Shown piece by piece: positions 14,174 through 40,416 of a stretch of 64,000 bases of DNA. The DNA lies in assembly GCA_013368375.1 (NCBI GenBank), contig JAACJP010000053.1, positions 1 through 64,000 on the forward strand, in the 5' to 3' direction. The translations under genes were made by a program, and so were the position numbers. The DNA is from Tricholomella constricta. Lineage: Eukaryota > Basidiomycota > Agaricomycetes > Agaricales > Lyophyllaceae. A model generated the notes under the pieces. The model was not told the origin of the DNA, made no database searches, and saw only the letters and a list, made by a program, of their open reading frames with translations. Within the stretch, counting starts at the first letter, position 1; every line of letters starts with the position of its first letter.

Positions 14174-14180
14174 TTTTTTT
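14174..14180 (+). terminator. RNA polymerase III terminator of tRNA-Ser
   Basis: A run of seven T six bases after the tRNA end is a standard pol III stop signal. Confidence 0.85.
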
Positions 14181-17651: not shown

Positions 17652-17845
17652 GATACGCAAAGGCAGGGGAATGCGAAAGCCTGCGAAAATGCGAGAGCTG
17701 TCCTTTTAACTTCGAGTCCGCTTTGACTGTGTCATTTCAAAGAGCAACCGTGCAGAGCTCCATGCTTGGAGGGCCATCCTCAGGTCAAAGGTGTGGCAGC
17801 GGGCCAAGCGGCATTTCCAGCTTGAGCCTAATTGTTAACGATTAT

Positions 17846-19000: not shown

Positions 19001-19003
19001 AGT

Positions 19004-19627
19004 GCTGCTGCTACTCTGTGGAGGTGAGTAACACCTCCGCTCTATGGCCCCCTAGCACTGTATAGGCCCACTGCAGCACCAGGTGTGCTACACAGACAAC
19101 AGTCATGGAGGTCTGCAGATGTACTTTAGACATGCTACATGTAGTGTGCTCCACTGCAACTCCGCGGAGGTGGCAAAACAGCCCTGCTCCTTGTCTGTAA
19201 CCATACTCAAATCATATTTTCCTGGCAAGGCTGGTGCCCGAACTACAAAAAGACACCCGGTTCCATCTTTCAAGGAGTATTATTCCTTCTTGCTTGATTT
19301 TGTGCTCTACTGCAACTCCGCGGAGGTGGCAAAACAGCCCTGGTCCTTGTCTTTAACCGTACTCAAATTGTATTTTCCTGGCAAGGCTGGTGTCCGAACT
19401 GCCCAATAGGACCATGATCAAAGACACCCAGTTCCATCTTTCAAGGAGTATTATTCCTTCGTTCTTGATTTTGTGCTCCACTGCTACTGCTACTCCGTGT
19501 GCTCCGCTGCAAGCCTGCGGAGGTGTGTAACAGCCCCTGCTCCGCGGCCCCCTACTGCACCATATAGGCCTGCTGCAGTGCTGGGTGTGCCCCACAGGCA
19601 ACGACCCGCGGAGGTCCGCGGACGTGG
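19004..19627 (+). repeat. outer left arm of palindrome (tandem units)
   Basis: It contains two to three copies of a ~140-160-bp unit (TTTTCCTGGCAAGGCTGGTG ... GTATTATTCCTTC ... CTCCGCGGAGGTGGCAAAAC, near 19155-19480), then one ~165-bp CCGCGG unit interrupted by GypB. The inverted counterparts lie at 37960-38480. Confidence 0.85.
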
Positions 19628-19848
19628 TGTAAGGACGCCCGCTATCTTATCTAATCTTGGTTATCTAATCGTATCTTATCGAGACGATTACGCTATTGTT
19701 TGGCAACACCTTCTGGTGTTGCCTATTTAATTCATTACATTAATTAAGTATAAACAACCTTGTACACCTATACGTAGCAATCGACAGACTTGTCAAGCTT
19801 ACGTCTAGTGTGAACAACAAGGTCCCCAAAATCTGTAACCCCGTTACA
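19628..19848 (+). repeat. 5' LTR of GypB
   Basis: 221 bp, TGTAAGGACG...CCGTTACA. It contains the hairpin GGCAACACC-TTCT-GGTGTTGCC at 19702-19723. The sequence right after it is a T-run (TTTTTTTAAGC), not a recognisable tRNA primer-binding site. Confidence 0.95.
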
Positions 19849-19957
19849 TTTTTTTAAGCTACCTTGCTTTCTATTGCTGCGTACCCACGACGTTACGCAG
19901 ACCCACATTCCATTTAGAACACCCATCATCAAAAAGAACCAACGAGACCGAGACCCG

Positions 19958-20791
19958 ATGACAACAACTCCCACATCCGGAAAGAGCCGAACTCCGGTCC
20001 TCGAGGATGCGCTCACAGCGCATCCTCCATCACAACTTCCACTGCAACCAGTGGAAGTCGGATCAGTCGCTGGTGGACAAAGTTCACCAGCGCAGAATAC
20101 ACTAGGAGTAGAATCGGAGGAACTTTGGCCAATAGCAAGCACCAATGTGCCTGGGAGCTTGGCCGACGAATTGGCCAGGTCACATCGACCTGGCCCCACG
20201 GCGGGAAGCAGATGGCCAGACAGCCGTCTGTCAAATAGAGCGTTCGGGGCGTCCACCCTGAGCATAGTCAAGATGGAGTCGGACAAAGACGACTTGTCCG
20301 ACCCCGAGGCTAATGAAGAAGAGGCCAGCGAAAGGGAATTGCTTGCGCTTCAAGTGAAGCAATTCTGGGACACCACCGATGTGGTTAACGAGCATCGGCG
20401 AAGGCGACTGGAGGAACGAGCGGATAGGCTCGTTCTGCGATCTACCGGAGCACAATCCGTTGGAGAAATGGTCGCACAAGCATATGCCGACCGATACTTG
20501 GAAGCGCTGTCCGTAGTAGTTACGGAATACAGGAAGAAGTACCCTAAGGGAACTTCGAATTCAGCAGTCAGCTCGATCGCTGGGACGCCTGTACCTAAGA
20601 AAGCCTTGTTCAACAAAGGAAAAGGTCGTTGGGATGACCTCTTCACTCCTCAAGCAGTGGCTGCCGGATCGAACCAGCCTTTTGATGAGGCTGCCATGGC
20701 AGTATCGGCGCTGCATCAAGCGCGACAGTTAGGAGAATCTGACGACGATTATCGTCGTCGGGGTCTGCGGCAGCGAAGCGCGAAAGAATGA
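19958..20791 (+). CDS. GypB ORF1, unknown, with FW...RRRLE module
   Basis: 277 aa from ATG 19958; the frame is open further upstream, but this is the first ATG. Residues ~120-195 hold a charged helical module (KQFWDTTDV...RRRRLEERAD...YADRYLEAL...YRKKYPKG) that occurs twice in the GypC ORF, which identifies it as a structural or Gag-like part of this element group. The stop codon overlaps the next start (ATGA at 20788-20791), suggesting coupled termination and reinitiation. No database family was recognised. Confidence 0.75.
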   Translation: MTTTPTSGKSRTPVLEDALTAHPPSQLPLQPVEVGSVAGGQSSPAQNTLGVESEELWPIASTNVPGSLADELARSHRPGPTAGSRWPDSRLSNRAFGASTLSIVKMESDKDDLSDPEANEEEASERELLALQVKQFWDTTDVVNEHRRRRLEERADRLVLRSTGAQSVGEMVAQAYADRYLEALSVVVTEYRKKYPKGTSNSAVSSIAGTPVPKKALFNKGKGRWDDLFTPQAVAAGSNQPFDEAAMAVSALHQARQLGESDDDYRRRGLRQRSAKE

Positions 20792-23001
20792 CTCGTGAAG
20801 AGCATCTTGCGCAACCACAGGGATCCAAATGGGCCCCTGTTAGTGAGTCTACGTTAGACCCACCCACGGAACGTAAGTATACAACCACGCAAGCAGCTGG
20901 CGACGAAAGCGCGCCAGCTATTCAAGTACCTATGGATGCGAAGGATGGCCGTGTTCCATTAGCGAAAGATTGGAACAACCGAGTCGCATATCAGCGTTTG
21001 AGAAACGCTGATTTATCACGGAGCAAGTTCACGAATTATGATGATCAAGGAGTCGTCTTCGAAGGACATATGCCCGTAGATGAGATGGCGAGGCAATGGG
21101 CCTCGCAAACTCAAGGTTCGGATGGTGGACTGGGAAATGGGGCCGTTGGAAAACATAATACGACGGCGACGGCTAACGGCCGTCAAGACATGCGGGTTCG
21201 TATAAGTGAACCCACTTCACATGCTCAGCCTCGATTTCAAAGTCGAGGCTACTCAATGCCTGACCCGATTCGCAGGAGTCAATCAATTGCGGACGGAATA
21301 CATGCTGCTGGAGAGCAGCATAAAACTAAGATGCACGAACGGTTGCATCAACTGATACACGAGCGACTGGCTGTACGCCTATCGCTCCCTGATGGTATGA
21401 AATCTCGTCGTGCGGACTCAAAGTCCGTAGGCACTTATAGTGGAAGTGCCAAGTTTGGCGAATTGGAAGAATGGCTAGCCAGCCTTGTCGTGATGCTAGC
21501 CGTGAGCCAGTTTGGAGGAACAGAACACGACCAAGAGCGCGTTCTGATAACATCCGAGTTCCTTGATGGTGAAGCTCGGAAATGGTACAATCGCCATGTT
21601 ATCCATGTGAACCGCGAAAAGCAGTCCTGGACGTTTGAAGACGTCATACTAGGGCTGTACGATCGGTTCGTGCTGCCTTCAACCATGCAGGATGCTCGTA
21701 ACGACTTTAACGCCGTTACCTATTCGGCGAGCAAAGGCATACAAGGTCTGTATGACGACCTTGTGGATCATGCCATGAACATGGCAGCAAGAACAGATGA
21801 TTGGACGTTCCTGGAGAAATTTCTCAAAACACTTCCGCGCGATATGCGGAAGGCATTATTCGATGACGGGCTATCACCCGAAATCAATACAGCCCAAGAG
21901 TTCCTAGCGGTGGGCCTAGCACTTCAAGCCACCCAGAAAACGGCTGATTACTTTGAGCGGACCATAACCGCTCAGCGAAGTCAACCGAGCCAAATGCGGA
22001 AACCAGATGGGGGGCGAGTAAACGCTCCACACAATAATTTCAACAGGCCTCGACGGGTGTATGGCGCAGTAAATGAAAAGCCATATGTCAAGCCAGCGTA
22101 TCAGGATCAACCTGGACGTGGAGAGCAAAAGCCCCACGTCGAAAAACCAGCGATGAAGACAGGAGATCGTCCGCGTTACAATCAACCTAAAAACCACGAT
22201 CATCACAACCACCCTCCGGGGGAAGTGTGCTTTAATTGTGGAAAACTAGGGCATTTTGCAAAAGATTGCAAACAGCCCAAGAAACAGCGAGCGTTCCTAA
22301 GGGCCGCACGTACAGCGGCACCTGACGCGGCAAGTGAGGTGGACGATGAAGACACGTCTCCCGAGGACCCGGACGGACGAGACAATGGACGCCCTGATAC
22401 AGAGGCGGACAATGAAGACGAAGGCGATGAGTTCGTAGACATGGAGGTCTACGAAAATGAATACTATGCTCGGGACGATGAGACCGAGCGTATGTTTGCA
22501 ATGACAGAAGTAATTGCGTCAGAAGAACGCAATGATAAACCACCAGTTCGCAAAGTTAAAGTGCGGACGGGGAGGGACAAAATTGCTCGTCCCGTAGTTC
22601 CGATAAAGGACAAGGAGTGCCTTGTCACCTACATTAACGTAGGTGGACATGAGGCTTGGACCCTTTGGGATTCCGGGAGTACAACTACCGGACTTACGCC
22701 GTCATTCGCTCAAGTGGCCGATATTCGAGTATTTCCGCTGGAGGATCCATTAATCCTCCAGCTCGGGACTAAAGGAAGTCGGGCCACAGTAAACTTTGGT
22801 ACGACGGTGGAAGCCGCTCTTCCAGGGTTTAAAGGCAAGGTTTACATGGACCTTGCTAACTTTGATCGATACGACGTGATTATAGGCACGCCGTTTATGC
22901 GCGCAAATAACGTCGTGCTGGACTTTAACCGTGACGAAGTTGTCGTCAATGGAGTCGCTATACCAGCGACTAAGGTAAAAATGGAGGATACCGATGGCTG
23001 A
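20788..23001 (+). CDS. GypB gag-protease polyprotein
   Basis: 737 aa. A gag-type capsid region (about residues 225-400, including FLDGEARKWYNRHV) is followed by a CCHC knuckle CFNCGKLGHFAKDC (about 481-494), an acidic linker, and a retropepsin with DSGST (about 631) and the flap-end IIGTPFM. It starts at the ATG that overlaps the ORF1 stop. It ends at TGA 22999-23001, which lies in the loop of a hairpin (CCGATGGC...GCCATCGG). The following pol frame is in the same phase after a second TGA at 23038-23040. Confidence 0.85.
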   Translation: MTREEHLAQPQGSKWAPVSESTLDPPTERKYTTTQAAGDESAPAIQVPMDAKDGRVPLAKDWNNRVAYQRLRNADLSRSKFTNYDDQGVVFEGHMPVDEMARQWASQTQGSDGGLGNGAVGKHNTTATANGRQDMRVRISEPTSHAQPRFQSRGYSMPDPIRRSQSIADGIHAAGEQHKTKMHERLHQLIHERLAVRLSLPDGMKSRRADSKSVGTYSGSAKFGELEEWLASLVVMLAVSQFGGTEHDQERVLITSEFLDGEARKWYNRHVIHVNREKQSWTFEDVILGLYDRFVLPSTMQDARNDFNAVTYSASKGIQGLYDDLVDHAMNMAARTDDWTFLEKFLKTLPRDMRKALFDDGLSPEINTAQEFLAVGLALQATQKTADYFERTITAQRSQPSQMRKPDGGRVNAPHNNFNRPRRVYGAVNEKPYVKPAYQDQPGRGEQKPHVEKPAMKTGDRPRYNQPKNHDHHNHPPGEVCFNCGKLGHFAKDCKQPKKQRAFLRAARTAAPDAASEVDDEDTSPEDPDGRDNGRPDTEADNEDEGDEFVDMEVYENEYYARDDETERMFAMTEVIASEERNDKPPVRKVKVRTGRDKIARPVVPIKDKECLVTYINVGGHEAWTLWDSGSTTTGLTPSFAQVADIRVFPLEDPLILQLGTKGSRATVNFGTTVEAALPGFKGKVYMDLANFDRYDVIIGTPFMRANNVVLDFNRDEVVVNGVAIPATKVKMEDTDG

Positions 23002-23040
23002 GCTAGACGCCATCGGTCATTGGAGAAACGAAGAGAATGA

Positions 23041-26000
23041 CTAAAAGTAACAGTAGAAGATGACGATGATCCTGATAATGAGGGTAGGCCGATAAACAGC
23101 CTACCGAAGGATCATCCAGCACTTCTATTATCCGAGGAAGAGTTTCAAGAAACTCTTAAGGAGGGGGATAAGCCACCTCCGAAGAAGAGAAAACCCCAAC
23201 GACGACAGCAGAAGGCAAAAAACGAGCCTTCGAACGAACGAGCACAGGTTGACGAGCCATGCGAAGAACGTCAGCGCGATAATGAAGCGCGTAAGACGAG
23301 CGGGGCCGACAAGGATACGGAATCAGAGCCGTATACGAATACGAGTAATCGATCATTTTGGGATAGACCAAATCCACATCCACAATATGAGTGGATGTTC
23401 GACCCACGGATGCCGCAAGAATGGAACGCAGTAATAGCGTCAATGCGGGCTCACGAAGGAAGAAATGTAGGCACGCGAGGACAAGCGTACCGAAATCCAC
23501 GGCCTGAGGAAGTATCGGAGCCAACGGAAATGAATTTTCCGGTGAATATACAACGGGCTAAACGGCCGTTGTATCGGTTACCAGTGAAGGATGAGAGTGA
23601 TTTTGCTCTCGTAAAACTACGAGCTAGGTTTGATGTTAAACCTAGCAATAAAGACACAGCGCACATTCGCGCTGCAAGAACGGTGAACGGAAAAGGTAAG
23701 GCACCCAATGGAGGCCTTACCGCGGAAGATTATCCACGACTTCGCCAGCAATGGCATGACGAATTCGAAGATATGGTGGGTGGTACGAAACAACAGCTAC
23801 CACCCTGGCGGGAAGTCAATCACGAGATTACTCTCGTCGATGATGAGAAACAGTACCAGTACCACGCGCCGAGGTGCCCAATGTCCCTTCGCGAGGAATT
23901 CTACGCGAAGGTCAATCGGTATACGGATTCTAAATGGTGGGAGCCTCGTTCGGTGAAGCAAGCAGCGCCGCTGCTATGTATCCCGAAAAAAGACGGCTCC
24001 CTGAGAACACCCTTGGACGCACGCCAGCGTAACGATAACACGATCAAGTACGCCCTTGCCAGACCAGGAAGTTATTCGCGAAGATGTCGCTAGGGGAAAA
24101 ATACGGTCCAAAATTGACTTAACGGATGCGTATGAACAAGTACGCATCCTTGAAAAAGATGTACATAAAACCGCCTTCGCAACGATAGCGGGAACATACA
24201 TCAGTAACATCATGCAAATTGGGGACTGTAATGCTCCCGCGACATTTCAACGATTAATGACGTCCATCTTTCGGGACGTCATTGGGAAGTTCATGCATGT
24301 ATACTTGGACGATATATTCATATTCTCGAACTCTATTGAGGAACATGAAGACCACTTGCGAGTTGTGTTCGAACGATTACGCGAACAATCACTCTACCTT
24401 AAATGGAAGAAATGCGAATTGTATTCGGATCGCGTTGATTGCCTGCCTTGGTCATATTATTGACGACCAAGGAACTCACCCTGACGCCGACAAACTGGCA
24501 CGGATCCGTGACTGGAGGATACCACGGAATTACAACGATATCCAACGATTCGTTGGACTTGTTAACTATCTGGGACAGTTTCTCCCAGATATATCTGCAT
24601 ACACTGGTCCACTAATGGCGATGACCGAGAATGGGTCGCCATTTTATTGGAGACCAATTCATCAGCGATGCTTTGAAATGATAAAGCATATATGCTGCAC
24701 AACGCCAATTATTCGGCCGATTCAACCGAAGACAGGCGAACCAATTTGGATTATCTGTGACGCCTCCAAGTCAGGCGTCGGTGCGATGTATGGACAAGGA
24801 CCTACATGGATCCAAGCCCAGCCGGCTGGATTCATGTCCAAAAAATTCACTAATGCACAGCAGAATTATGCTGTGCATGAACTCGAGACCTTAGCTATTC
24901 TCGAAGCGTTACTTAAGTGGGAGGATAAACTTGTGGGCTATAAAATCCACATCATTACCGACCATAAAGCCCTCGAATTCTTTAAGACCCAGGTGAATTT
25001 ATCACCTAGGCAGCGTCGATGGATGGAATACATGTCGCGATTTAACTTCGACATAACCTATGTGAAAGGCGAACTGAACAAAGTCGCCGACTGTCTATCG
25101 CGATACTTCGAGAGCGATAACCATCAAGATCGTTACGACGTCCACGACTTCGTAGCTGCTGATGCGAGAATCGATCCTACTGGTGAAGATCTACCAGTAC
25201 CACGATACCATGAAATCGTGGAAAAAGTAGTTGAGATTCGAGTGATGAAAGACGTAGAAATACGTCGAAGCAAGCGTCTTCAAGAACGCCAGGAGGATCG
25301 AGATGTCGAGGCTCAGATAATGGAGGCTGCGGCACCAAGTACCGCATCCGGAACATCGTCACACCCTCAGAAAAGCATGAGTCCAACCAAACGGGAACGT
25401 ACGGTCGGAGATATTGTCCTCGGGAGGGACACAGTTTCTCCTCCCCCAGACAAAACAGATGAAAAGATCCGTCACGACGTTATCCTTGGATACCCAAAGG
25501 ATAAACTATTTTCAGTTATTCTCGCTAACCCAATGGACTTTCGTACGTTCACCACGAAAGACAATCTCATTTGGACCACGAACGCTATAAATGATAGCGT
25601 TCTATGCATACCGCGAGAACCCGAGCTCATCACCACAATTATTGAGCAAGCCCATAAAACTATGGGCCATTTCGGTGCCGAACGGACTACTGAATATATT
25701 CGACGATGGTATTGGTGGCCATCACTAGCCACGACCGTGCGTACGTTTTGTAAAACGTGCGAGTACTGCCAGCAGATCAAGACGTCGAATCAAAAACCGT
25801 CAGGGAAACTACACTCCCTGCCAGTACCAACTAAGCCTTGGGATTCTATCGGAATGGACTTTATCGGTCCATTTCCAGAATCAAAGGGATATAATTACCT
25901 ATGGGTAGTAATTTGTCGTATGACGAGTATGGTGCATATGATACCCATACATACGACGATGACAGCAGCCCAATTATCATGGGTATACTTACGGGAGATC

Positions 26001-26939
26001 GTCAGGCTCCATGGCCTGCCAAGCTCGATCGTAAGCGATCGAGACTCTAAGTTTACGTCACGCTGGTGGCGCGAACTACATAAGTTATTAGGAGCTAAGC
26101 TCCTAATGTCGACATCTTTCCATCCTCAGACGGATGGACAAACGGAGCGAGCCAATTGTAGTATTGGCCAGATATTTCGTGCCGTTGTGAGGCATGACCA
26201 AAAGGATTGGGTAGATTGTATACCCATGGCTGAGTTCGCGATAAATGCGAGCGTATCGGCTACCACCAAGTTCGCTCCATTTGAGCTGAATAGTGGATAC
26301 ATGCCGTCCATGTTGAAAGAGATACGCTCAGACAGCGTAATACCGAAGGGAATTCGAGAGTATGCGGAACGCGCATTGCAGAATATAGCGGAGGCGCATG
26401 ACGCTATAATCGAAGCGCGCATATTTCAAACGCGCGAGGCAAACAGGCGCCGATCCGCTGGTCCAGAAATAAAGGGGGGAGACTTGGTGTATTTATCCAC
26501 CAAGAACTTGAACCTCCCCAAGGGACGCGCCCGTAAATTGTGCCCGAAATTCGTCGGGCCCTACAAAGTGCTGAAGGCCATGCCAGACACGTCGAACTAT
26601 ACGTTGGAATTACCTACGGCACTCATGGAGCGCCGGATACATCCAACATTTCATATATCGATGTTGCGCCCATACTACGCAACGAATGATACAATGTTCC
26701 CTAATAGAACTCATCCGGAGCCCTACGATTTTGGGGCGCCGGATAATCACGAATGGTTTGTAGAAGACATTTTGGGCCATAGATGGACCCAAAATAATAC
26801 TGTGGAATATCAGGTTAGGTGGAGCCTGGGAGACACCACCTGGGAACCGCACACCAATTGTAACAAGTTAGCGGCACTGGATCGCTACTTGGAACTACAA
26901 GGGGTGAAGAGCGCGTCGAGATTACCGCGACGAACCTAG
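23041..26939 (+). pseudogene. GypB pol: reverse transcriptase, RNase H, integrase, chromodomain (two frameshifts)
   Basis: The open frame from 23041 encodes an acidic/basic linker and the RT N-terminus (CIPKKDGSLRTPLDARQRN). It shifts near 24040 (small deletion before LPDQEVIRED), continues with HVYLDDIFIFSNS, and shifts again at ~24440 through a TGCC-TGCC tandem duplication. From 24282 the frame is open to 26939: RT thumb, RNase H (CDASKSGVGA, DHKALEF), an HHCC integrase zinc site (GHFGAERT...CKTCEYC), the integrase core (DFIG, SDRDSKF, Glu in HPQTDGQTERAN), and a C-terminal chromodomain (EWFVEDILGHR...YQVRWSLGDTTWEP). Repairing two indels would give a normal chromovirus Pol; as read it is interrupted. 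Confidence 0.88.
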
Positions 26940-27067
26940 AATGTGGCGCGGTCATGTGACCACGGCGATCAGGAAAATTACATAACCATCAAAAGTTATG
27001 ACAGAAGGTTAAATATGTTTGGCGCTAGACGCGCAACCGATTTTCAACCCTCTCAACACAAACCAAC

Positions 27068-28084
27068 ATGTACCCCAGCCAAGTACCAACCTCCAGCAAC
27101 GACGCGATTCGGGGCGGCGACAGCCGCACCGACCAGCAAAATTTGAACCCGGGGCCGAGTTCAAGTGGGGAGGGAGTGCAGGGGCGCGCGGAAAATGCGC
27201 CCCTGCCCCCAACTTACATGGGCTCGCAGCCCCCATTATACCAATATCCTCCGGTTGGCCATATGAGCCAACCGCCCCATCAGGGGCAACAAACATTTCC
27301 GACGGCTGGCCATATGAGCCAACCGCACCACCAAGGGCAACAACCACCTATGGGTGGTTTTTACCCGCCAGGGCTGGCATTCCAACAGATGCCATCAATG
27401 GCGGGTTTCATGGGGTACCCGCAACCGACGTGGTACCCCCAAATGCCCATGCAGCCTGTACCGCACAATACGCGGTACAACGAATCGGAGAAGATGGAGG
27501 TAGACGACCAAAGTCGTCTGCAAGCAAATGTTCCGCCGGCGCAAGTGGTGCGCGGCGAACCGGTGCGGCAACATGTCGCACCGAATGCAGACGACAAAGC
27601 GTCGTCGGCGTCGAGTTCGCAGAGGATGGCAGACGATCGCAGAGTATCGCCTGCGTCAAGTTCGAGGAGACCATTCGCAGACGATGGTCTCCTTTCTTCT
27701 CTCTTGGATCGATTGGAAGATGCGGGTATTCACCGCGAATTTTGTGATTTCTTGGACGATGGAATGGCGCAGCTGGTTATAACCCAGCTGCTTGATGCAC
27801 ACGATGGAGTTCGCGCGGATTTGAGACGCGTGAAAGCGAGAGAAGCGGCCATGGCTGAGCAACTCAGCCTGGCAAGAAAACGGCCGGCAGTAGCATCGCC
27901 GGATCGCGGGGAGGGACCATCGTCCCGACCCATAAAAAAGGCAGCAAACGGAGGTGCGTCGAGAAGAACGCACCTCATACGAGCCGCGACGACAAGAGAG
28001 GAGCGAGCCCAGGCGTCCGGAACGACGCCTGGAACAGGAGAATCGGCGGTACAACCGCCACCCCGACCAGGAAGTGTGGCGTGA
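27068..28084 (+). CDS. GypB extra ORF3a, Pro/Gln-rich, unknown
   Basis: 338 aa (first Met codon at 27068). It lies between the integrase and the 3' LTR, the place where env sits in errantiviruses, but there is no signal peptide or membrane segment. The N-terminal half is rich in Pro, Gln, Met and Tyr with repeated PVGHMSQPP-like units (about residues 62-100). A helical segment follows (LLSSLLDRLEDAGIHREF, about 215-260). It overlaps ORF3b in another frame by 131 bp, so the two may be one ORF joined by frameshifting or split by an indel. Confidence 0.6.
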   Translation: MYPSQVPTSSNDAIRGGDSRTDQQNLNPGPSSSGEGVQGRAENAPLPPTYMGSQPPLYQYPPVGHMSQPPHQGQQTFPTAGHMSQPHHQGQQPPMGGFYPPGLAFQQMPSMAGFMGYPQPTWYPQMPMQPVPHNTRYNESEKMEVDDQSRLQANVPPAQVVRGEPVRQHVAPNADDKASSASSSQRMADDRRVSPASSSRRPFADDGLLSSLLDRLEDAGIHREFCDFLDDGMAQLVITQLLDAHDGVRADLRRVKAREAAMAEQLSLARKRPAVASPDRGEGPSSRPIKKAANGGASRRTHLIRAATTREERAQASGTTPGTGESAVQPPPRPGSVA

Positions 28085-30023
28085 CGAACGCCCACTTGAT
28101 TATGGTTCTCAACGGGAAGAGCGCCGAGAGGATCAAGGGACGCGCGAAGTGCGCCCCTTACCTGCTCGAGAAATCGAGCGCACGGCGTCGACATCGTCGA
28201 CGTCAGCGGAAGCAAAGCCGCAAAACCTATCCGGAGCGTTACCGCCCCCGGGAGAAAGCCGGGTGCGGAACCCAGAACGAGGTTCTCAGAAGAAGGAACC
28301 TGTTGGCAAATATACTTTGCCAGCGCCAGCCCCTGCACCACCTAGTACGATGGTGCAGCCCCCAACGCCGCCATCCAAAGGCAAACAGAAGGCATCGGAT
28401 CCATATGCCGAGGCTATGGATGAATCGGACTGGGGCGAGTCGTCTGACGACGACAAGCCTGTCAGCAAGAAGAAGGCTGCCGGGCAAAAGCAGCATCGCG
28501 AGAATATGGCTCGCAAAGCTGAGAAGGAGATGCCGGGGCGGATCCCTGACGAGCTCGGGGTGGTCTTAATCAACGACCGCCACGAGAGGGACAACCGCTT
28601 TTGGGATATGCTAGTGCGGACGATATATGTATCGTCCACCCAGAATCGTGCCTACGCACTAGGCACCGCAGCGCGAGTGTCCGAAAGCGAGTTGGGGACG
28701 GGACACAATTCTCGTCCCCCATCGGGACAGCTATATGCCGTCGCACCACGCGGGTTCCCAATGAACCCTCGTGAAGTTGATCAGTTGTATGCACTGATCA
28801 ATGATCGGCGCCCCGGCGTGACGGATGAAGAGCGGGCAGAGGCCTTTATGCTCTTTAGGGAGTTCCGGCGAGTCTCCCTCTCGGTAGCGCCCCATTTGTG
28901 CGACCGATCCATGGCTCGAGCAGCCATGGATGAATTTAGAAGCGTCAACCGACTGTTCGATACACGGTCACCCATTTGGCAGGCCGCGCCAATTAGGCGG
29001 CCTGGGAGGGCATTCGAATATAGGCCGGACAAGCCTACACGAGGCGCTGGCCTGCCTCAGCCAGGCCCCGACCATGCCCTCGATGTCGAGCACTGGTGCC
29101 GACATATGATTCACCATGGGCGTATTGGTTCAAAGAACCAATACGGAGGAATCGTCATGGACTACCGGTTCCGCGTACATAGGCGCGGAACTTGGGGATA
29201 CTTGTTGGCGAATGTACTAGCGCCAACTACCCACAGCATGCGGTCATGGTTCATGCGACTTTTCGCGACCATTACTGCGCGGCCATACCTCTACGCAGAG
29301 GCTGTGGCTGCCTATAACGAGGCCAATCCAGATCGGCCTTTCACACCGATCGAAGGCCCTGAGGTTACCATACCTCGCATCCAAGTGATCCCTCCGGAGG
29401 TGCGGATCACTGAACAAGGTGTCTTGCAACACCTTATCAACATTGGTATTCCAGTAAGCTGGATACACCATAGCTACACTTATGGTCTACATTATTTGGA
29501 CCATAACTACTCTAACTCAGGTCCCTATAAGGACCTGTTCCGCAATGTTGACGACGATCGAGTTCGTCGTCTAGATGAAATGGGTGTTCCGCCCGCCATC
29601 CCTGAGTGGGATGGGTGGTACCATCCCACCACCGACGACATCACGCGCATCCAAACACTGATGCACGTGGAATTCCAGACCGAATCACTAGACTGTCTAG
29701 TGAGTTCGGAATGGATGTTTGTGGGTGAAGACCCACACTTCCGAGGACTCCGTGTTCGGGTGGGGGAATATCTCCCCCCAGGCCTGCATCACCCAGCTTC
29801 ATCGGGATCGACGTCCATCAACGTCGAAATGGCGGACCCGGCGGCAGCTATACCTGCCCCCGCGACACCCTCCACAGTCGTGGCAGCTCCAACTGGAGCT
29901 ACCGAAACCCAAGTGGACCCCGTGTCGGCCCTTACAGGGCCTTTATCACTGGCGGTGATTACCACCAGCCAGGGTCCGGTGGACAACAACACCACCGACC
30001 CCGACACAGTGATGGAGTCATAG
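27954..30023 (+). CDS. GypB extra ORF3b, large protein of unknown function
   Basis: Open for 689 codons; a usable start is not certain because it may be the continuation of ORF3a. An Arg/Glu-rich N-terminus (about 1-110) precedes a folded-looking domain (about 200-590) with aromatic and His-rich segments such as HWCRHMIHHGRI, DYRFRVHRRGTWGY and SWIHHSYTYGLHYLDH, and a Thr/Pro/Ala-rich tail. Similar hypothetical proteins occur beside fungal gypsy elements. I know of no tested function, and it is not a recognisable env, RNase H or chromodomain. Confidence 0.65.
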   Translation: MRREERTSYEPRRQERSEPRRPERRLEQENRRYNRHPDQEVWRDERPLDYGSQREERREDQGTREVRPLPAREIERTASTSSTSAEAKPQNLSGALPPPGESRVRNPERGSQKKEPVGKYTLPAPAPAPPSTMVQPPTPPSKGKQKASDPYAEAMDESDWGESSDDDKPVSKKKAAGQKQHRENMARKAEKEMPGRIPDELGVVLINDRHERDNRFWDMLVRTIYVSSTQNRAYALGTAARVSESELGTGHNSRPPSGQLYAVAPRGFPMNPREVDQLYALINDRRPGVTDEERAEAFMLFREFRRVSLSVAPHLCDRSMARAAMDEFRSVNRLFDTRSPIWQAAPIRRPGRAFEYRPDKPTRGAGLPQPGPDHALDVEHWCRHMIHHGRIGSKNQYGGIVMDYRFRVHRRGTWGYLLANVLAPTTHSMRSWFMRLFATITARPYLYAEAVAAYNEANPDRPFTPIEGPEVTIPRIQVIPPEVRITEQGVLQHLINIGIPVSWIHHSYTYGLHYLDHNYSNSGPYKDLFRNVDDDRVRRLDEMGVPPAIPEWDGWYHPTTDDITRIQTLMHVEFQTESLDCLVSSEWMFVGEDPHFRGLRVRVGEYLPPGLHHPASSGSTSINVEMADPAAAIPAPATPSTVVAAPTGATETQVDPVSALTGPLSLAVITTSQGPVDNNTTDPDTVMES

Positions 30024-30379
30024 GTCGGGGAGACAATTTAATCCCCCCGTCAACGAACCGACCTCGACACGTAGGGCGTACCGCCGGGCCGACCGCCATT
30101 GTCAGGTGCAGACCACCTGACTCCCGAGGAGCAATCCGCAGGTTGCGTATTAACGCAACATTGGATGTCCTCACCACCACTCATTGTCGCACGGCACTTT
30201 GAGGCCGTGCAGTGGCGCTAATGCATCCACTATTCGTTAAGTCGAGAATACGTATCATACCTACGTATTCTTGCAGTATTTGATAGGTCTAGGTCGCCGG
30301 GACCTAGACCCTCCTTTTACTCTCTTTTTCTGCCCAACTCCCTGGTGAAGATCGCTACACGCGATCTTAAAGGGGGGTA
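30024..30379 (+). other. GypB 3' non-coding region and polypurine tract
   Basis: Non-coding, yet still full of hairpins: GAATACGTA...TACGTATTC near 30246-30270, GGTCTAGGTC...GACCTAGACC near 30287-30311, and AAGATCGC-TACAC-GCGATCTT at 30348-30368. The polypurine tract AAAGGGGGGTA abuts the 3' LTR and is the likely plus-strand primer. Confidence 0.8.
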
Positions 30380-30600
30380 TGTAAGGACGCCCGCTATCTT
30401 ATCTAATCTTGGTTATCTAATCGTATCTTATCGAGACGATTACGCTATTGTTTGGCAACACCTTCTGGTGTTGCCTATTTAATTCATTACATTAATTAAG
30501 TATAAACAACCTTGTACACCTATACGTAGCAATCGACAGACTTGTCAAGCTTACGTCTAGTGTGAACAACAAGGTCCCCAAAATCTGTAACCCCGTTACA
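30380..30600 (+). repeat. 3' LTR of GypB
   Basis: I see no difference from the 5' LTR over 221 bp. The target duplication CGTGG follows at 30601. Confidence 0.95.
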
Positions 30601-32153
30601 CGTGGGTAATGCCCTGCAAGCTCAATGTCATGCAGACATACTATATGTAGTGTGCTCCGCTGCAAGTCCGCGGAGGTGTGCTGCTTTGTGGCCCACTGCA
30701 CCATATAGGCCTGCTGCAGTGCTGGGTGTGCCCCACAGGCAACGACCCGTGGGGGTCTGCAGACGTGGGTAATGCCCTGCAAGCTCAATGTCATGCAGAC
30801 ATACTATATGTAGTGTGCTCCGCTGCAAGTCCCCGGAGGTGTGCTGCTTTGTGGCCCACTGCACCATATAGGCCTGCTGCGTGCTGGGTGTGCTCCACAG
30901 GCAACGACCCGCGGACGTGGGTAATGCCCTGCAAGCTCAATGTAATGCAGACATACTATGTGTAGTGTGCTCCGCTGCAAGTCCGCGGAGGTGTGCTGCT
31001 TTGTGGCCCACTGCCCCATATAGGCCTGCTGCAGTGCTGGGTGTGCCCCACAGGCAACGACCCGCGGAGGTCCGCGGACGTGGGTAATGCCCTGCAAGCT
31101 CAATGTAATGCAGACATACTATGTGTAGTGTGCTCCGCTGCAAGTCCGCGGAGGTGTGCTGCTCCGTGGCCCCCACAGCACCATATAGGCCTGCTGCAGG
31201 GCTGCGTGTGCTCCACAGGCAACGACCTGCGGACGTCCGCGGACGTGGGTAATGCCCTGCAAGCTCAATGTAATGCAGACATACTATATGTAGTGTGCTC
31301 CGCTGCAAGTCCGCGGAGGTGTGTAACAGCACCTGCTCTGTGGCCCCCTATTGCATCATATAGGCCTGCTGCAGTGCTGGGTGTGCTCCACAGGCAACGA
31401 CCTGCTGACGTCCACAGACATGGGCAGTGCCCCGCAAGCCCCCCACCCTGCTGCCCCCCCACAGCATCGTATCGGCCCCCTGCAATCCTGGGTGTGCCCC
31501 AGACAATGACGCGCGGACGTCCGCGGACATGGGCAGTGCTCCGCAAGCCCCCCCACCCTGCTGCCCCCCCACAGCACCATATCGGCCCCCTGCAATACTG
31601 GGTGTGCTCCACAGACAATGACCCGCGGAGGTCCGCGGATGTGGGTAGTGCCCCACTAGCCCCCACAGGCAATGACCCGCGGACGTCCGTGGACATGGGC
31701 AGTGCCCCGCAAGCCCCCCACCCTGCTGCCCCCCCACAGCATCGTATCGGCCCCCTGCAATCCTGGGTGTGCCCCAGACAATGACGCGCGGACGTCCGCG
31801 GACATGGGCAGTGCTCCGCAAGCCCCCCCACCCTGCTGCCCCCCCACAGCACCATATCGGCCCCCTGCAATACTGGGTGTGCTCCACAGACAATGACCCG
31901 CGGAGGTCCGCGGATGTGGGTAGTGCCCCACTAGCCCCCACATGCTGCCCCCCACAGCACGATATAGGCCCGCTGCAGCACCAGCGGGCCCGCTGGTACT
32001 GTGCCAGACGCTACATGTAGAGGTCCCGCTGGCACCGTGCCAGACGGCTACATGTAGGGGCCCCGCTGGCGCTCCAGCGGGCCCGCTGGTGCCGTCAAGT
32101 ATGCTACAATGTATGGGCCTGCTGGACCGTGGGACACGCTACATTGTAGTGCC
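30601..32153 (+). repeat. inner left arm of palindrome: ~165-bp then ~110-bp tandem repeats
   Basis: CGTGGGTAATGCCCTGCAAG recurs at 30601, 30763, 30915, 31079 and 31244 (periods 162, 152, 164, 165). From about 31410 a related ~110-bp unit (ATGGGCAGTGCCCCGCAAGC) recurs at about 31417, 31527, 31692 and 31802. The innermost part (31940-32153) is a distinct segment with CTACATGTAG and CCAGCGGGCCCGCTGG palindromes. Long shadow ORFs on both strands come from the repeat and are not genes. Confidence 0.9.
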
Positions 32154-32359
32154 TGTATGTGGTTACATAGCATTGGACAAAGTAAAGCCCAAGACTGCTT
32201 GAAAAGCCAGAGCCACGAAAGCTAAAGTCAAAGACGCGAATACGGCCAAAGTCAAAGACAAAGCTAGCCGCAAAAGCTGAAGTGACAAAATCCGAAAGCC
32301 AAAGGCGGTGTCATTTTGCTGATGTAGAAGGGATCTGACTTATGGTACGGCAAATGGTA

Positions 32360-32686
32360 TTACACGCGACCGTCGCCAAACACCAAGGAAGTCCGCTTGA
32401 TAACCTTGCACCAGTTGAACAGCGCAGTGCCGTTCTTCTGCACGAGCTCACCAGACCGATGACATGCATAGAAACAGCACGCAAGGATCACTGCAAAGCG
32501 AAGATCGTCATACGACCCGGTCTCCTGAGCGATCTCCAGAAAGCGCGTTAGGTGCAGAACCCGCAAGCTTCCTCCTGACGGGGTTGGCCCAAATCTTCTT
32601 CGACCCCCAGATAGTCGTCTGCACGAGAGGGTGACTTCAATTGGCGTCAAAATCGGGGTAGATGTCATGAAGGAAATGGCAAGCAC
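32360..32686 (-). pseudogene. tyrosine-recombinase-like fragment in palindrome core
   Basis: The only unique coding-like sequence in the palindrome, about 108 codons on the minus strand. TPIEV-TLS, a helix FLEIAQETGSYDDLRFAVIL and then CHRSGELVQKN resemble the Arg-x-x-Glu (R-[SL]-GEL) active-site helix of fungal tyrosine recombinases of Crypton- or DIRS-related elements. The downstream His-x-x-Arg and Tyr boxes are missing, so it is at most a fragment. The assignment is by motif only. Confidence 0.45.
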
Positions 32687-32706
32687 TGGAGAGGTACTTG
32701 AGGTAG

Positions 32707-33079
32707 GGGCATTACAATGTAGTGTGTCCTACGGTCCAGTGGGCCCATACATTGTAGTGTACTTGATGGCACCAGTGGGCCCGCTGGAGCGCCAGCGGGG
32801 GCCCCTACATGTAGCCGTCTGGCACGGTGCCAGCGGGACCTCTACATGTAGTGTCTGGCACAGTACCAGTGGGCCCGCTGGTGCTACAGCGGGGGGCACT
32901 ACCCACGTCCGCGGACCTCCGCGGGTCGTTGTCTGTGGGGGCCAATATGGTGCTGTGGGGGGCAGCAGGATGAGGGGGCTTGCGGAGCACTGCCCATGTC
33001 CGCGGACATCCGCGGGTCGTTGTCTGTGGGGCACACCCAGGATTGCAGGGGGGGCAATATGGTGCTGTGGGGGGGCAGC
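32707..33079 (-). repeat. inner right arm of palindrome
   Basis: Inverted counterpart of 31621-32153: ATTACAATGTAG, TACATGTAG blocks, CCCGCTGG motifs, then ACCCACGTCCGCGGACCTCC units. It is interrupted at 33079 by GypC and resumes at 36976. Confidence 0.85.
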
Positions 33080-33273
33080 TGTAAGGACGCAGGTCCAGAC
33101 TGGTCACCTGTTGTTGGCATTGATTGGCAACGCCTTCGGCGTTGCCTATATCTATTGTTTATATCTATTATTTTAAGATCTTCGCAACTTCATGTATAAC
33201 TAGCAGAAAAATGACATCTGGTCAAGCTCAGTTATAGTGTGAAAGGCGAGGTCGTCCTTGTAGCACCGCTACA
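33080..33273 (+). repeat. 5' LTR of GypC
   Basis: 194 bp, TGTAAGGACG...CCGCTACA, with the hairpin GGCAACGCC-TTC-GGCGTTGCC at 33126-33146. Confidence 0.93.
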
Positions 33274-33392
33274 TTTTTTTGAGCTATCCAGCTCTACTGC
33301 TATATACAGCTATATCCCGCTATATCCCGCTATCTGCTTCTTTTCTCATTCTGGCCACTCAAACCCCTTTTGGCCAACACCGACATCTTGAT

Positions 33393-36119
33393 ATGACATC
33401 GAGAACCACCCAGGACCATGCGACACGCGCATGGACACACGAGGCCGTGGACACGCGGCCACGTCACTCGTCGGAACCGCAGCTTGCGGCCCCGAGAGGC
33501 TTCTCGATGCTCGAAGCATCGAAATTGATGCCACGTCACATGGCAGAACCGCCGGCGACGGCTTCCTCGAGCAAACTCGAGCCGTACCTATGGAACGGCA
33601 CAGGCGAATCTTCGTCGCCTGTGCACGAAGATTGGATCGAGCTCGCCCTTTTACGGCGCGAGCTTCAGTTATTTTGGGCAGCTACGAGGATAACCGACGA
33701 AACTCAGCGACGTAGGCTCGAAGCCTGTGCCGAACGCGATGTATCTGAGTACTTTGGACAAATATACATTGATGTAGGACATACAGAGTACCTACAACGA
33801 TACATGGACGCGCTACGTGCACGCTATTGCGACTGGTGCGGTCAAGGAACCGCACCGACTACAAGCGCTACACCTTCGATTTGGGAGGCCAAACTCGAAG
33901 CGTTTTGGGAGACGACGGATGTCCAGAGCGAATACCGGCGTCGGAGGCTGCTAGAGGCCACCGAGAAGATGTACCGGAAGTACGGTGCCACACGTATGCA
34001 TCGTACGGCGGTCGGCGACTCATACACTGACAAAACTATAACGACACTTCGTGATGTCATTGAAATATATAGGAAGCGGCGTCCGAAGGACGCAAAACGA
34101 GGGGCATCGCAATCTTGCGATGCAAGTACGACAGCGCTGCAGGCGCAATCAACGACGAAACCAGCGGGACCATCAGGTGATGGTCCTAAAAATGCACACT
34201 CGGACGGCTTGAGTGCCGCCCCCTTCCGATCCATAGTGAAGCGCTCCGAAAGACGCGAGGGCAATGGCCTCGCATCGGTGAACGTCACATATCGTGGCGG
34301 ACACGATGACTGCGACTGGCGAGCACCGTCTCCGACTCATGATTCAAGTATGCGACGGAGGTCACAGCCCAGGCATGAGGCCCTCAATCAGGGCAACATC
34401 GAGAGTATCGTCGAGCATCGGAGGATGCTCAAGGAGACACGAACCGAGGAGAACGCCGTATCCGAACGACGTTCTGGTGGAGGGGAGAGGTACCAGAGCA
34501 GTAGCCACCACCTCACAAACGAGACGATGAAGGAAACGTCGCAGAGCGACGTCTTACGACCCATGATGTCCAGCAAAGGCGCAACAGCCGCTGGCAGGAA
34601 AAGCGCCAGCGACACAATGTCGGAGGTGTCGAAGATACAACCTCCGAAGGCCGAGGTGCACCAGAAGGGCGCAGGAAACGAGCACCGACAGAGTATGGTC
34701 TGGATAGACCATACTATAGTTGATGGCGCGCGGCAAGGCCGTGCGCATCGAATCGAATTGCAGTTAGAAGGTGCACAGGAGGACAGCAAGCGTTCTCCTA
34801 CCAAGCACATGGACAGGCCTGCACCAGCACGTTCAATAGCCCGCAAGTGTTCATCGTCTGGGTATGAAATACCCAGACCCTCTAGTGGCACTGTTGCTGT
34901 CACACCGGTGTCAGAGAGCGCCAGCGTGCGCCCTCAACCAGAACGAGCATCGGAGCACCCAAGAAGAGGTGCCGTCAGTGATGGTGGAAAAACAATTGTG
35001 CCCCAGATGATTGTGAGGCACCAGAATGGACCAAGGGGCTTACCTGGACGGCAGAGTGATGGGCATAGCCCAGCATCGAACTCGAGCGCAGCACGTCTAG
35101 TTAAAGATGTGCAAGACAGGCATCCGACGTTAATGGATGTGCGGACAGATGTCCGCAAGGGAGGAGATGGGTGTGGCAAACACCCATCGAGAATGCTTGA
35201 ACGCCACGGGACGACAAACGCAAAGGTGCAGATGCCGGCATACCCGGAGGCGGACTTCCACATTGCGTGGTGGATAGCACGACGCATCGACGACGGAAGC
35301 GACTGGAACGAGACGTTCCGGGAGCTAATGCACGATCGAACGGAAGACGATGTGCGCCGGGTTTGGAGGTGGGTGATGTACCACCTCCGGCATCACAGAG
35401 AGGAACTCCGTGCGAACACGGGGTTAATGGGCGTCAAGTCTGTTCCGGAGACGGCGTCAAGCGCTGTATCCGATGATGGATCTAGTGACCGACTCAGTGA
35501 GGTGGGAAGGTCAAGATCGAATTCGCAAAATGGACAGGAGCGAACACGCACCCCTGATCATGTCCTAGACTGGTTGGAGGGTAACTCGAGCACCTACTCG
35601 CGCAGTATTAGTGCGAGTAGGGACAACTACAACATGGTGGTACCGATACCATCGGTAGTTCGGAACGAAATGGCCACTGAACGATTAGCGTGTATGCGCC
35701 AAATTGTTCATCGCACATATGGTGATGAACTGGAAGGGGAAGGCGACGAGAATGGTGAGCGGTCCGAAGGCCATTCGGAATGCTCAGAAGCATGGCATGT
35801 CCGAACATATGAATGTGAGGACGCATGCCATGAATACCAGTACTTCGATGAAGACGGGAAGGAAATTCACGTCTACGAAGTGGAGAGCGATGGGGAAACC
35901 AGCGCTCTCGAGGCGGAATATGATAGCTACCGTGAACGTGGTAGCTATCAAGAGGAGGAGGAGAGTGGCGCTGAGCATAGCGGCTCGGAAGACGCTCGTT
36001 TTAACGACGAGCAAGAGAGTGGCGCTGCACATAGCGGCCCAGAAGATGCTCGTTCAAACGACGAGCAAAGCGACGAAAGCGCTCGTTATGATGATAACGA
36101 GTGCACCGATTCTGATTGA
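33393..36119 (+). CDS. GypC Gag-like protein, unknown
   Basis: 908 aa from the first ATG (33393). Residues ~75-155 and ~165-245 are two copies of a helical module (LQLFWAATRITDETQRRRLE... and LEAFWETTDVQSEYRRRRLL...RKRRPK), homologous to the single module in GypB ORF1. A long polar, low-complexity middle follows. A compact segment (FHIAWWIARRIDDGSDWNETF...VWRWVMYHLRHH, about 625-675) and a strongly acidic C-terminus containing a tandem repeat (EESGAEHSGSEDARFNDEQ type, about 850-895) complete it. No CCHC knuckle, protease or RT was seen. Codons accommodate a continuous series of short inverted repeats. Confidence 0.75.
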   Translation: MTSRTTQDHATRAWTHEAVDTRPRHSSEPQLAAPRGFSMLEASKLMPRHMAEPPATASSSKLEPYLWNGTGESSSPVHEDWIELALLRRELQLFWAATRITDETQRRRLEACAERDVSEYFGQIYIDVGHTEYLQRYMDALRARYCDWCGQGTAPTTSATPSIWEAKLEAFWETTDVQSEYRRRRLLEATEKMYRKYGATRMHRTAVGDSYTDKTITTLRDVIEIYRKRRPKDAKRGASQSCDASTTALQAQSTTKPAGPSGDGPKNAHSDGLSAAPFRSIVKRSERREGNGLASVNVTYRGGHDDCDWRAPSPTHDSSMRRRSQPRHEALNQGNIESIVEHRRMLKETRTEENAVSERRSGGGERYQSSSHHLTNETMKETSQSDVLRPMMSSKGATAAGRKSASDTMSEVSKIQPPKAEVHQKGAGNEHRQSMVWIDHTIVDGARQGRAHRIELQLEGAQEDSKRSPTKHMDRPAPARSIARKCSSSGYEIPRPSSGTVAVTPVSESASVRPQPERASEHPRRGAVSDGGKTIVPQMIVRHQNGPRGLPGRQSDGHSPASNSSAARLVKDVQDRHPTLMDVRTDVRKGGDGCGKHPSRMLERHGTTNAKVQMPAYPEADFHIAWWIARRIDDGSDWNETFRELMHDRTEDDVRRVWRWVMYHLRHHREELRANTGLMGVKSVPETASSAVSDDGSSDRLSEVGRSRSNSQNGQERTRTPDHVLDWLEGNSSTYSRSISASRDNYNMVVPIPSVVRNEMATERLACMRQIVHRTYGDELEGEGDENGERSEGHSECSEAWHVRTYECEDACHEYQYFDEDGKEIHVYEVESDGETSALEAEYDSYRERGSYQEEEESGAEHSGSEDARFNDEQESGAAHSGPEDARSNDEQSDESARYDDNECTDSD

Positions 36120-36778
36120 GCGTGTTGGGCTCGTTGTGCCCAACAGTTCCTATCCAGGTCTTTGAGATGCGATATGAGACGCATCAGTCCGGCAGCCGTA
36201 TCGGTTATGTGTCGACGTTGATAACGTCGAGGTGGCAGCCTACGCGACTTTAACCACAGTCGCAGCGATATCTATCGCTGAAACCCTTGTGGCGTATACG
36301 TCGGCGCGATAAATAGCGCCTCAGTCTTCTGCGGTAGTTCAACCAGCCCTGGTCTGGCAGTCGCAATAGCTGTCGACGAGGAGTCGAAGACGGAGCCAAA
36401 AAATCGATGAAGCCATAAATTACTGGCTGACGACTCGATTGGCGACTATCCTCAACTTAGGCGCGAAAGTCATCGTTGGGCATTATGTGTCCAACCCTAG
36501 CCAGTACGTCCGCGGAACATGGATGCCAATCTCTCAGAGACTGGAGGAACAAGTCGCGGTCGACAGAATCGACACTATGTTAGGGCCATGACCTAACATT
36601 ATCATTATTCCATATCGTCGGGGTACCAATACCCAGACGCGACAACTGTGGCACATAAAATATGCGCAATACATTTGACTATTATTGCGCGTACTGTACG
36701 CGCAATATATTCGACATATTCATCCCTCGACATCCGCCCGGGTGTAAAGATTGCTGAGTGCAATCTTAAAGGGGGGTA
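36120..36778 (+). other. GypC 3' non-coding region and polypurine tract
   Basis: No ORF. Perfect hairpins continue, for example GTTGGGC/GCCCAAC (36124-36144), TCGACGTT/AACGTCGA (36212-36230), CAGCGATA/TATCGCTG (36263-36280) and AAGATTGC/GCAATCTT (36747-36767). AAAGGGGGGTA directly precedes the 3' LTR. Confidence 0.85.
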
Positions 36779-36975
36779 TGTAAGGACGCAGGTCCAGACT
36801 GGTCACCGGTTGTTGGCATTGATTGGCAACGCCTTCGGCGTTGCCTATATCTATTGTTTATATCTATTATTTTAAGTAGATCTTCGCAACTTCATGTATA
36901 ACTAGCAGAAAAATGACATCTGGTCAAGCTCAGTTATAGTGTGAAAGGCGAGGTCGTCCTTGTAGCACCGCTACA
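36779..36975 (+). repeat. 3' LTR of GypC
   Basis: 197 bp, matching the 5' LTR except for three extra bases (TAAGTAGATC against TAAGATC) and one substitution. Confidence 0.93.
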
Positions 36976-38504: not shown

Positions 38505-38854
38505 AACATTTCTACTGGTATACAACCTCAACAGTATACAGTATCACCATCAAATCCTGTCTGGATGTTATGCTTTACCTCCATTCAATCATGGGCCTAC
38601 AGAGGAGGCTACACTTAAACCTGTAGCTCCACTATAATTGTGGTGTGGAGTTAACAAAGCCTGTATCAAGTATCAAGGGAGTGTTGTGTAATGAGTATGA
38701 CCTTTGTGTTCCTTAGTATTTCAATAGCAGGAGGGCTGCAACAGCTGAAGGGCCGCAATAGCTGTATCTAGCTCAATATTGACAATGCTGTGCATAAAGA
38801 GTACATTATATCGCAGTAGCAAAGTAAGTGTAAATATGAAAGATGGTGCTGTAT
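38505..38854. other. intergenic, nothing recognised
   Basis: AT-rich sequence between the palindrome and the small LTR element, without an ORF or repeat. Confidence 0.5.
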
Positions 38855-39034
38855 TGTAAGGGTTGTGACTGGGTGACACTGGAGTATATCATGCCGGATA
38901 CTTATTCCCACGGGCTCTAGTTTTTACCATTGCTTTACTTTCACTACGCCTGTGTTGCTCACTCTTCTCACTATAGAATTGGATCAAACACACTTGTGAC
39001 TGAAGCTAGGACCTCAAGACTCAACAATCTTACA
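38855..39034 (+). repeat. 5' LTR of TRIM-like element
   Basis: 180 bp. It starts TGTAAGGG and ends CTTACA, forming short inverted termini. Confidence 0.85.
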
Positions 39035-40260: not shown

Positions 40261-40416
40261 GGACGACCCCCTTTTTCATTTGGTTACCTGATGGACTCTT
40301 TAGGTAGTGTTTTACCAGGTACAACCATTTTTTTTTCCTTTTTTCGTCACCCTTTCCCTTCCACCATCTTTTCTTCAGATAGAGTCATCCTTGGGGCTGA
40401 TTCTAGAGGGGGAGAA

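Follow-up and report, generated by a model that had tools for sequence, protein, structure and literature searches.

The window analysed here is a stretch of 64,000 nucleotides of Tricholomella constricta DNA (assembly GCA_013368375.1, contig JAACJP010000053.1, positions 1 to 64,000, forward strand), and it contains two related long terminal repeat (LTR) elements, GypB and GypC (Table 1). Both elements are paved with short inverted repeats, which were very probably selected for pairing. GypB has two LTRs, a short target duplication, and reverse transcriptase, RNase H and integrase domains in that order, as in Ty3/Gypsy elements. In its gag/protease region, the CCHC domain of Pfam scores above the cut-off, and RVP_2 and Ty3_capsid score below it; a chromodomain in pol (Pfam Chromo) also stays below the cut-off, at 19.9 bits vs 25.1. 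The pol frame is broken in the window copy somewhere between ~24005 and 24261 and is open over 1299 residues in many other copies. At least 51 matches to GypB pol were scored in the genome (44.1 Mb, 118 contigs), and most of them share 98-99% or 95-96% protein identity with the window copy. Copies at other loci are designated by L numbers below. In copy L003, gag-protease and pol (23041 region) lie in one frame, separated by just one stop codon, as if readthrough or re-initiation yields pol. No Pfam domain was found in the third open reading frame (ORF3), whose only relatives among the candidates scored are three Lyophyllum proteins; its AlphaFold model is unusable (mean predicted local distance difference test score, pLDDT, 33). 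Among the matches listed, relatives of the pol segment 24261-26939 at 61-73% identity come mostly from metagenome sources, often as contigs of 8-12 kb, which is approximately the length of one element.

GypC contains LTRs and cis signals like those of GypB, and no pol was found in it, as in a non-autonomous partner of a helper element. Judging from the ends that it shares with GypB, GypC would depend on the enzymes of GypB. The two elements have in common the purine-rich tract, the start of the LTR, a hairpin in the LTR and a hairpin ahead of the tract, and each of these two hairpins differs between GypB and GypC by one complementary pair. The LTR-end sequence of GypB and GypC is found at 114 sites in the genome with at most 2 mismatches, some of them assigned to neither element. 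The 951-residue frame of GypC contains no detectable Pfam domain, pol domains included, and its residues 209-298 resemble GypB gag (36-37% identity). The frame is stop-free over nearly its whole length in 10 of the 57 matches listed, the window's own counted. Outside the hairpin arms, 173/1954 zerofold sites and 64/487 fourfold sites differ between the window and L031. The protein is thus only weakly constrained, with zerofold sites changing almost as fast as fourfold ones, yet the frame is open in 10 near-whole copies. Non-autonomous LTR elements include LARD and TR-GAG elements, and GypC resembles them in having LTRs, a target duplication, ends shared with GypB and no pol found; it differs from them in that its body is paved with hairpins and its long open frame is only partly gag-like.

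Table 1 Features of GypB, GypC and representative hairpins in the window
Feature	Position	Strand	Remarks
GypB, Ty3/Gypsy LTR retrotransposon	19628..30600	+	LTRs, domains, whole-length inverted repeats
GypB 5′ LTR	19628..19848	+	221 bp, identical to 3′ LTR
GypB 3′ LTR	30380..30600	+	
GypB target duplication CGTGG	19623..19627 (left copy), 30601-30605 (right copy)	+	5 bp, read from sequence
GypB gag/protease region	19958..23001	+	open frames 19814-20791 and 20743-23001; frame broken in window copy
GypB pol region	23041..26939	+	reverse transcriptase, RNase H, integrase (Pfam)
GypB ORF3	27936..30023	+	695 residues here; 997-residue frame in many other copies
Purine-rich tract ahead of GypB 3′ LTR	30369..30379	+	identical in GypC
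GypB LTR hairpin	19702..19723, second copy 30454-30475	+	arm 9, loop 4
GypB gag hairpin	20003..20027	+	arm 11, loop 3
GypB 3′ untranslated hairpin	30286..30310	+	arm 10, loop 5
GypB pre-purine-tract hairpin	30348..30368	+	arm 8, loop 5; GypC has a counterpart
GypC, LTR element, pol not detected	33080..36975	+	
GypC 5′ LTR	33080..33273	+	
GypC 3′ LTR	36779..36975	+	
GypC target duplication GCAGC	33075-33079 and 36976-36980		
GypC ORF	33264..36119	+	951 residues
GypC purine tract	36768-36778	+	same tract as GypB
GypC LTR hairpin	33126..33146, second copy 36825-36845	+	arm 9, loop 3
GypC pre-purine-tract hairpin	36747..36767	+	

The inverted repeats are far more numerous in both elements than expected by chance. 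In GypB, 109, 61, 32 and 13 repeats with arms of at least 7, 8, 9 and 10 bp were counted, vs 9.8, 2.3, 0.5 and 0.1 in shuffled sequences (40 dinucleotide-preserving shuffles in 300-nt blocks, loops of 0-15). In GypC, the counts are 33, 24, 12 and 5 vs 2.4, 0.65, 0.18 and 0.02. Two control elements of the gypsy type in the window stay near chance, with 9, 2, 2 and 0 vs 7.3, 1.7, 0.45 and 0.12 in 46744-57272, and 10, 1, 0 and 0 vs 5.1, 1.35, 0.28 and 0.08 in 58896-64000. The corresponding values are 24, 5, 3 and 1 vs 16, 4.4, 1.0 and 0.2 for the stretch 1-19627, and 19, 4, 2 and 1 vs 10.8, 3.1, 0.85 and 0.2 for 36976-46743. Counts are also raised in the stretch 30601-33079 (18, 5, 2 and 0 vs 3.4, 0.9, 0.3 and 0.1), because it contains recurring GC-rich palindromes of another kind. 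Shuffles that preserve protein sequence and codon usage gave a similar picture for arms of at least 7: 22 vs 2.1 in gag, 9 vs 0.8 in the pre-pol region, 21 vs 2.6 in pol, 26 vs 2.3 in ORF3, 24 vs 3.1 in the GypC ORF and 7 vs 1.0 in gag1. Ten pol fragments of other gypsy elements from the same genome contain 0.3-2.2 repeats per kb, and three parts of GypB contain 7.6-11.9 (arm at least 7, loop up to 13); we note that the families compared are distant, with 28-42% identity to GypB pol in aligned stretches, and that none closer was tested. Neither type of shuffle comes anywhere near the observed counts, and no observation was found in favour of chance, base composition or bias in the protein sequence. 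Chance and composition are therefore ruled out as the cause, and we regard the probability of this explanation as negligible.

A preliminary description of the window had listed 15 of these inverted repeats. All 15 are present, 13 of them with the arm length given there, and the other two (27665-27693, arm of 10; 29121-29145, arm of 11) are each one pair longer. The excess that it claimed is borne out against both kinds of shuffles, as are the near-chance level in other gypsy elements (two control elements and ten pol fragments) and the occurrence of repeats in every ORF, in untranslated regions and in the LTRs. The density that it gave, a repeat in almost every 30-50 nt, was overstated: with arms of at least 6 and loops up to 13, the 182 repeats of GypB average one per 60 nt and cover 33% of the element, and the 49 of GypC average one per 80 nt and cover 26%.

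The main excess belongs to one class of hairpins, with arms of 6-12 bp and loops of 1-12 nt. Four-pair arms occur at chance level, and arms of 5 with loops of 3-12 are ~1.6 times as frequent as expected (126 vs 78). Arms of at least 7 that enclose a loop of 13-24 occur at close to the chance rate, and with loops of 25-40 there are 7 arms of 8 vs 2.0 expected. The enrichment rises with G/C content: among five-pair arms, 94 vs 48 expected contain at least 3 G/C and 34 vs 34 contain fewer, and among six-pair arms, 72 vs 14 (~fivefold) contain 3-5 G/C and 11 vs 5 (~twofold) contain fewer. The trend agrees with selection in favour of stable hairpins that do form. By our own reading, the spacing of the hairpins is spread approximately as in random placement, with no regularity, and there is only a mild preference in codon register (43/28/34). 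An Rfam search of 19000-37500 returned no match at the gathering score.

Comparisons between copies show that the arms are conserved. By our own argument, if change were neutral and time-reversible, a hairpin present in one copy should not influence the odds that its sites have diverged in another. Among GypB subfamilies (30 loci minus L001, which is the window itself, L020, L021, L024, L025 and L030; gapped positions excluded from substitution rates), the 5′ 5.8 kb shows fixed differences at 15/788 arm sites, 29/334 loop sites and 313/4649 sites outside for the hairpins of L003, and at 24/765, 25/339 and 308/4667 sites, respectively, for those of L029. At fourfold sites, the contrast between arms and outside is 4/148 vs 110/667 (L003 hairpins) and 4/144 vs 105/659 (L029 hairpins). 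We considered CpG effects as a cause of the deficit in arms and rejected them, as the deficit holds at non-CpG sites too. Singletons, which are young variants, show only a mild deficit in arms (21/864 vs 166/4617 sites) and fixed differences a large one, which fits selection. In a further comparison, the same substitutions were placed at random 200 times, with coding constraint ignored. More hairpins were left in the actual copies than after random placement (42 vs 19.8 in L029; 23 vs 5.0, maximum 11, in L047; 32 vs 12.7 in L031), and six of the seven relatives keep more than all 200 placements, L025 being the exception. L025 was included in this test and in the six-region, G-U and covariation comparisons. 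Summed over the six regions, which were compared in a cycle so that one branch may count more than once, 384/6354 arm sites, 333/2445 loop sites and 3963/37323 other sites differ. For the 3′ noncoding part of GypB, the figures are 20/226 differing sites in arms vs 192/797 in the surroundings. In the ORF3 of L047 (83.6% identity), 18 of the 26 hairpins retain at least 6 stacked pairs.

Paired sites also change together in part. Where both members of a pair have changed, the pair is still Watson-Crick in 40/58 cases, vs 767/1772 for chance pairs outside hairpins, and the ratio of Watson-Crick doubles to single changes is 40:273 in hairpins vs 767:18416 in chance Watson-Crick pairs. The p values of 1e-4 and 2e-10 are a guide only, as the events are non-independent. 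The Watson-Crick double changes involve 36/1600 distinct column pairs; by region, they make up 20/29 doubles in ORF3 and 10/12 in GypC, and the rest come from smaller regions. One pair of the hairpin at 30286-30310, for example, is C-G in the window and G-C in L055 and L057, and in L054, which contains an extra inserted copy of this hairpin, the same pair is A-T. A first control with slid partners was too generous, since such pairs are not Watson-Crick ones to begin with, and it was replaced by chance Watson-Crick pairs. The stricter control shrinks the size of the signal and not its direction; our assessments of likelihood predate it.

The hairpins are reflected in the folding energy of both elements. 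The minimum folding energy difference (MFED), calculated in 350-nt windows with 12 shuffles each, is 26.4% for GypB and 21.6% for GypC, and 1.9% and 6.5% for the two control elements. The relatives L029, L031 and L048 retain 20.6-23.5%, and twelve other gypsy sequences range from -0.6 to 6.5%. After all hairpins with arms of at least 6 are excised, 8.3% is left in GypB and 11.0% in GypC. For comparison, the available text of PMC7642675 gives 15% for SARS-CoV-2 and 7.5-10.7% for HCV, and names a deltacoronavirus, at 23.4%, as having the highest value on record among vertebrate RNA viruses; our shuffling program and window overlap differ from those of the cited papers. Mean folding z scores in 120-nt windows are -2.46 on the plus strand and -2.31 on the minus strand for GypB, -2.53 and -2.27 for GypC, and -0.07 to -0.44 for three other stretches. 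Together with the conserved arms and the covariation in more diverged regions, the MFED values support genome-scale ordered RNA structure (GORS), which was one of the interpretations offered in the preliminary description.

Several observations weigh against selected RNA hairpins. The hairpins cover merely 26-33% of the elements, and other gypsy families in the same host manage without such paving. L025 keeps 31 hairpins, which is within the random range (mean 23.5, maximum 34). Conservation of arms is weak in three of the seven contrasts (L025, L047 and L034), where 191/4313, 139/2028 and 492/3836 mask shifts, respectively, give a value as low as the observed one. Noncoding arms of GypC differ little from the sequence outside, and in L034 their rate of change is the higher one (11/121 vs 32/675). 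The 5′ 4.4 kb shows no covariation, with one Watson-Crick change in four doubles. Tolerance of G-U pairs, a mark of plus-strand RNA, is not significant overall: among single changes, the ratio of G-U to A-C is 45:36 in the interior of arms vs 1260:1267 outside (p 0.37) and vs 49:66 at arm ends (p 0.08, six regions). In a run over three regions, the ratio was 39:26 in the interior vs 40:56 at the ends (p 0.025), and the six regions lift this p value to 0.08. The gag-pol and middle regions together, at 8:20, lean away from RNA. Stems with a single interior G-U are rare in GypB and GypC (3 and 4, expected 1.6 and 0.7), compared with 60 and 24 perfect arms of at least 8, and those with a single interior A-C are no rarer (11 and 3, expected 2.0 and 0.4). 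The folding z score of GypB is also nearly equal on the two strands.

The near-exclusive Watson-Crick pairing, the lack of an overall G-U preference and the equal folding of the GypB strands would suit selection on DNA, either on single-stranded cDNA during reverse transcription or on small chromosomal cruciforms. On the other side, the hairpins of GypC are stabler when folded as plus-strand RNA (mean -0.57 kcal, p 0.006), which those of GypB are not (-0.10, p 0.59), and in L031 the plus strand is the better folded one (z difference -0.80, standard error 0.23), the two strands of L029 folding alike. ORF3 (G-U to A-C 14:4, p 0.017) and GypC (21:11, p 0.07) both lean to RNA as well. We thus consider selection on DNA quite improbable, and the selected molecule is probably RNA rather than cDNA or chromosomal DNA. 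The preliminary description had also proposed that the repeats may be traces of template switching in reverse transcription; such a process, or arm-to-arm correction, would leave them as scars formed with no selection. Template-switch quasi-palindromes are short perfect inverted repeats with small loops, and the near-perfect arms found here resemble them; a solo LTR at 14693 even carries an inverted hairpin loop, a possible product of such a process. Template switching or arm-to-arm repair is expected to leave multiple changes in one arm and not to slow noncoding arms. Among 403 hairpin comparisons, 202 are without arm change and 45 have at least three changes, which fall in both arms in 43 cases and in one arm in only 2, so that one-arm rewriting is not seen as a pattern. 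Correction alone would not slow the noncoding arms of GypB, which are conserved in the 3′ region as described above. No inverted loop was found among 87 hairpins of L003 (arm at least 6) when 28 loci and the window were compared, ignoring the 3′ tails of several rows that are flanking or misaligned (L011, L020, L021, L023 and L025). The genomic copies therefore point to selection over template switching, which is left unsupported and which we regard as very improbable.

The solo LTR is an LTR-like stretch of the GypB lineage at 14693-14890 (+), apparently solo, and its hairpin at 14766-14787 has the loop AGAA in place of TTCT with unchanged arms, the one loop flip seen. The LTR hairpin with any four-base loop occurs 187 times in the genome. 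A tRNA-Gln gene was called by ARAGORN at 14078-14168 (+). Tandem arrays surround both elements (30601-33079 and 36976-38000), with units of ~165-175 bp and GC-rich palindromes unlike the hairpins of the elements.

As to the role of the hairpins, a string of selected short hairpins would keep the RNA of GypB and GypC folded on itself. Such a transcript would likely avoid long duplexes and so escape host RNA interference, and, with short stems folding in either sense, long duplexes would form less readily. The genome contains stretches matching Piwi (16) and RNA-dependent RNA polymerase (18) domains, and their presence suggests that RNA silencing is likely available to the host. We see about an even chance that the repeats are, as a whole, selected RNA hairpins that fold the transcript and likely shield it from host RNA interference. 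The alternative is that the hairpins are selected in RNA because they help the machinery common to GypB and GypC to package, compact or reverse transcribe it, and not for evading the host. It would agree with the presence of the same paving, purine tract and LTR hairpins in GypC, in which pol was not detected, and with the absence of paving from this host's other gypsy families. The loops, on the other hand, change at least as fast as their surroundings in the sum over six regions, and no common motif was seen in the listed loops of GypB and GypC, which makes a coat protein that reads loops unlikely. Packaging or copying as the benefit is unlikely in our view. Shielding, to which we give somewhat better odds than packaging, is still slightly doubtful as the specific benefit.

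A broader and more speculative possibility, which we think has a low probability, is that the paving acts as a licence for the whole lineage: any RNA would have to be paved for the GypB machinery to shield, package and copy it, and this would include the pol-less partner, whose body is largely unrelated. Equally tentative is the part of this proposal in which nearly Watson-Crick-perfect hairpins are individually selected and fold both in the RNA and in its complement. The paving may reach a wider clade in other fungi. In a test on protein sequences only, the room for perfect 10-bp repeats was expressed as a ratio to that in shuffled residues, and this ratio is 1.21 among 34 pol relatives with 61-73% identity (29/34 above 1), 1.09 in 19 at 53-58% (14/19), 1.03 in 36 at 48-61% (20/36) and 1.07 in three ORF3 relatives; these values are suggestive only, as the relatives are non-independent, and 89 of the 120 pol relatives listed were used. 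Scans of viral_contigs and genome_contigs confirmed no DNA relatives elsewhere.

The closest known system is the GORS of RNA viruses, which the available text of PMC3950689 ties to weaker cellular sensing of RNA, with an MFED threshold of 3%. GypB and GypC exceed this threshold, and their MFED is high over the whole element, coding and noncoding. They likewise form many short local stem-loops and no long duplexes; their arms end at 12 bp, and viral duplexes reportedly avoid lengths above 14. The differences are that the carrier is an LTR retrotransposon and not a positive-strand RNA virus, that the stems are perfect Watson-Crick ones, and that the pairings are kept between relatives and partly covary, whereas GORS pairings are reportedly poorly conserved. 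The MFED of GypB also lies above the reported maximum of 23.4%, with the reservation that the programs differ. The paving of GypB and GypC thus works like GORS but departs from its reported features on two points, as the pairings are not poorly conserved and the carrier is not a virus. Ty3 genomic RNA (PMC11381356) is likewise the folded RNA of a Ty3/Gypsy LTR element; compared by description only, the available text presents a folded core and dimerisation sites, and hairpin paving is unmentioned in it. The dispersed packaging signals of RNA viruses, as far as described in the available parts of PMC6281560 and PMC7793301, resemble the paving in having many stem-loops over the genome, and differ from it in that the loops of GypB and GypC have no motif in common and evolve at the pace of the rest or faster. 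A limited literature search found no described LTR element with hairpin paving, in agreement with the preliminary description.

Genome-scale RNA structure has so far been discussed for RNA viruses, where it is tied to hiding from host sensing. GypB and GypC offer a natural experiment on such structure: the element sits in the chromosomes in many copies and conserves its own pairings, the trait is shared by a relative without pol, and other families are without it. They also show that the synonymous sites of a transposon can rank among its most constrained.

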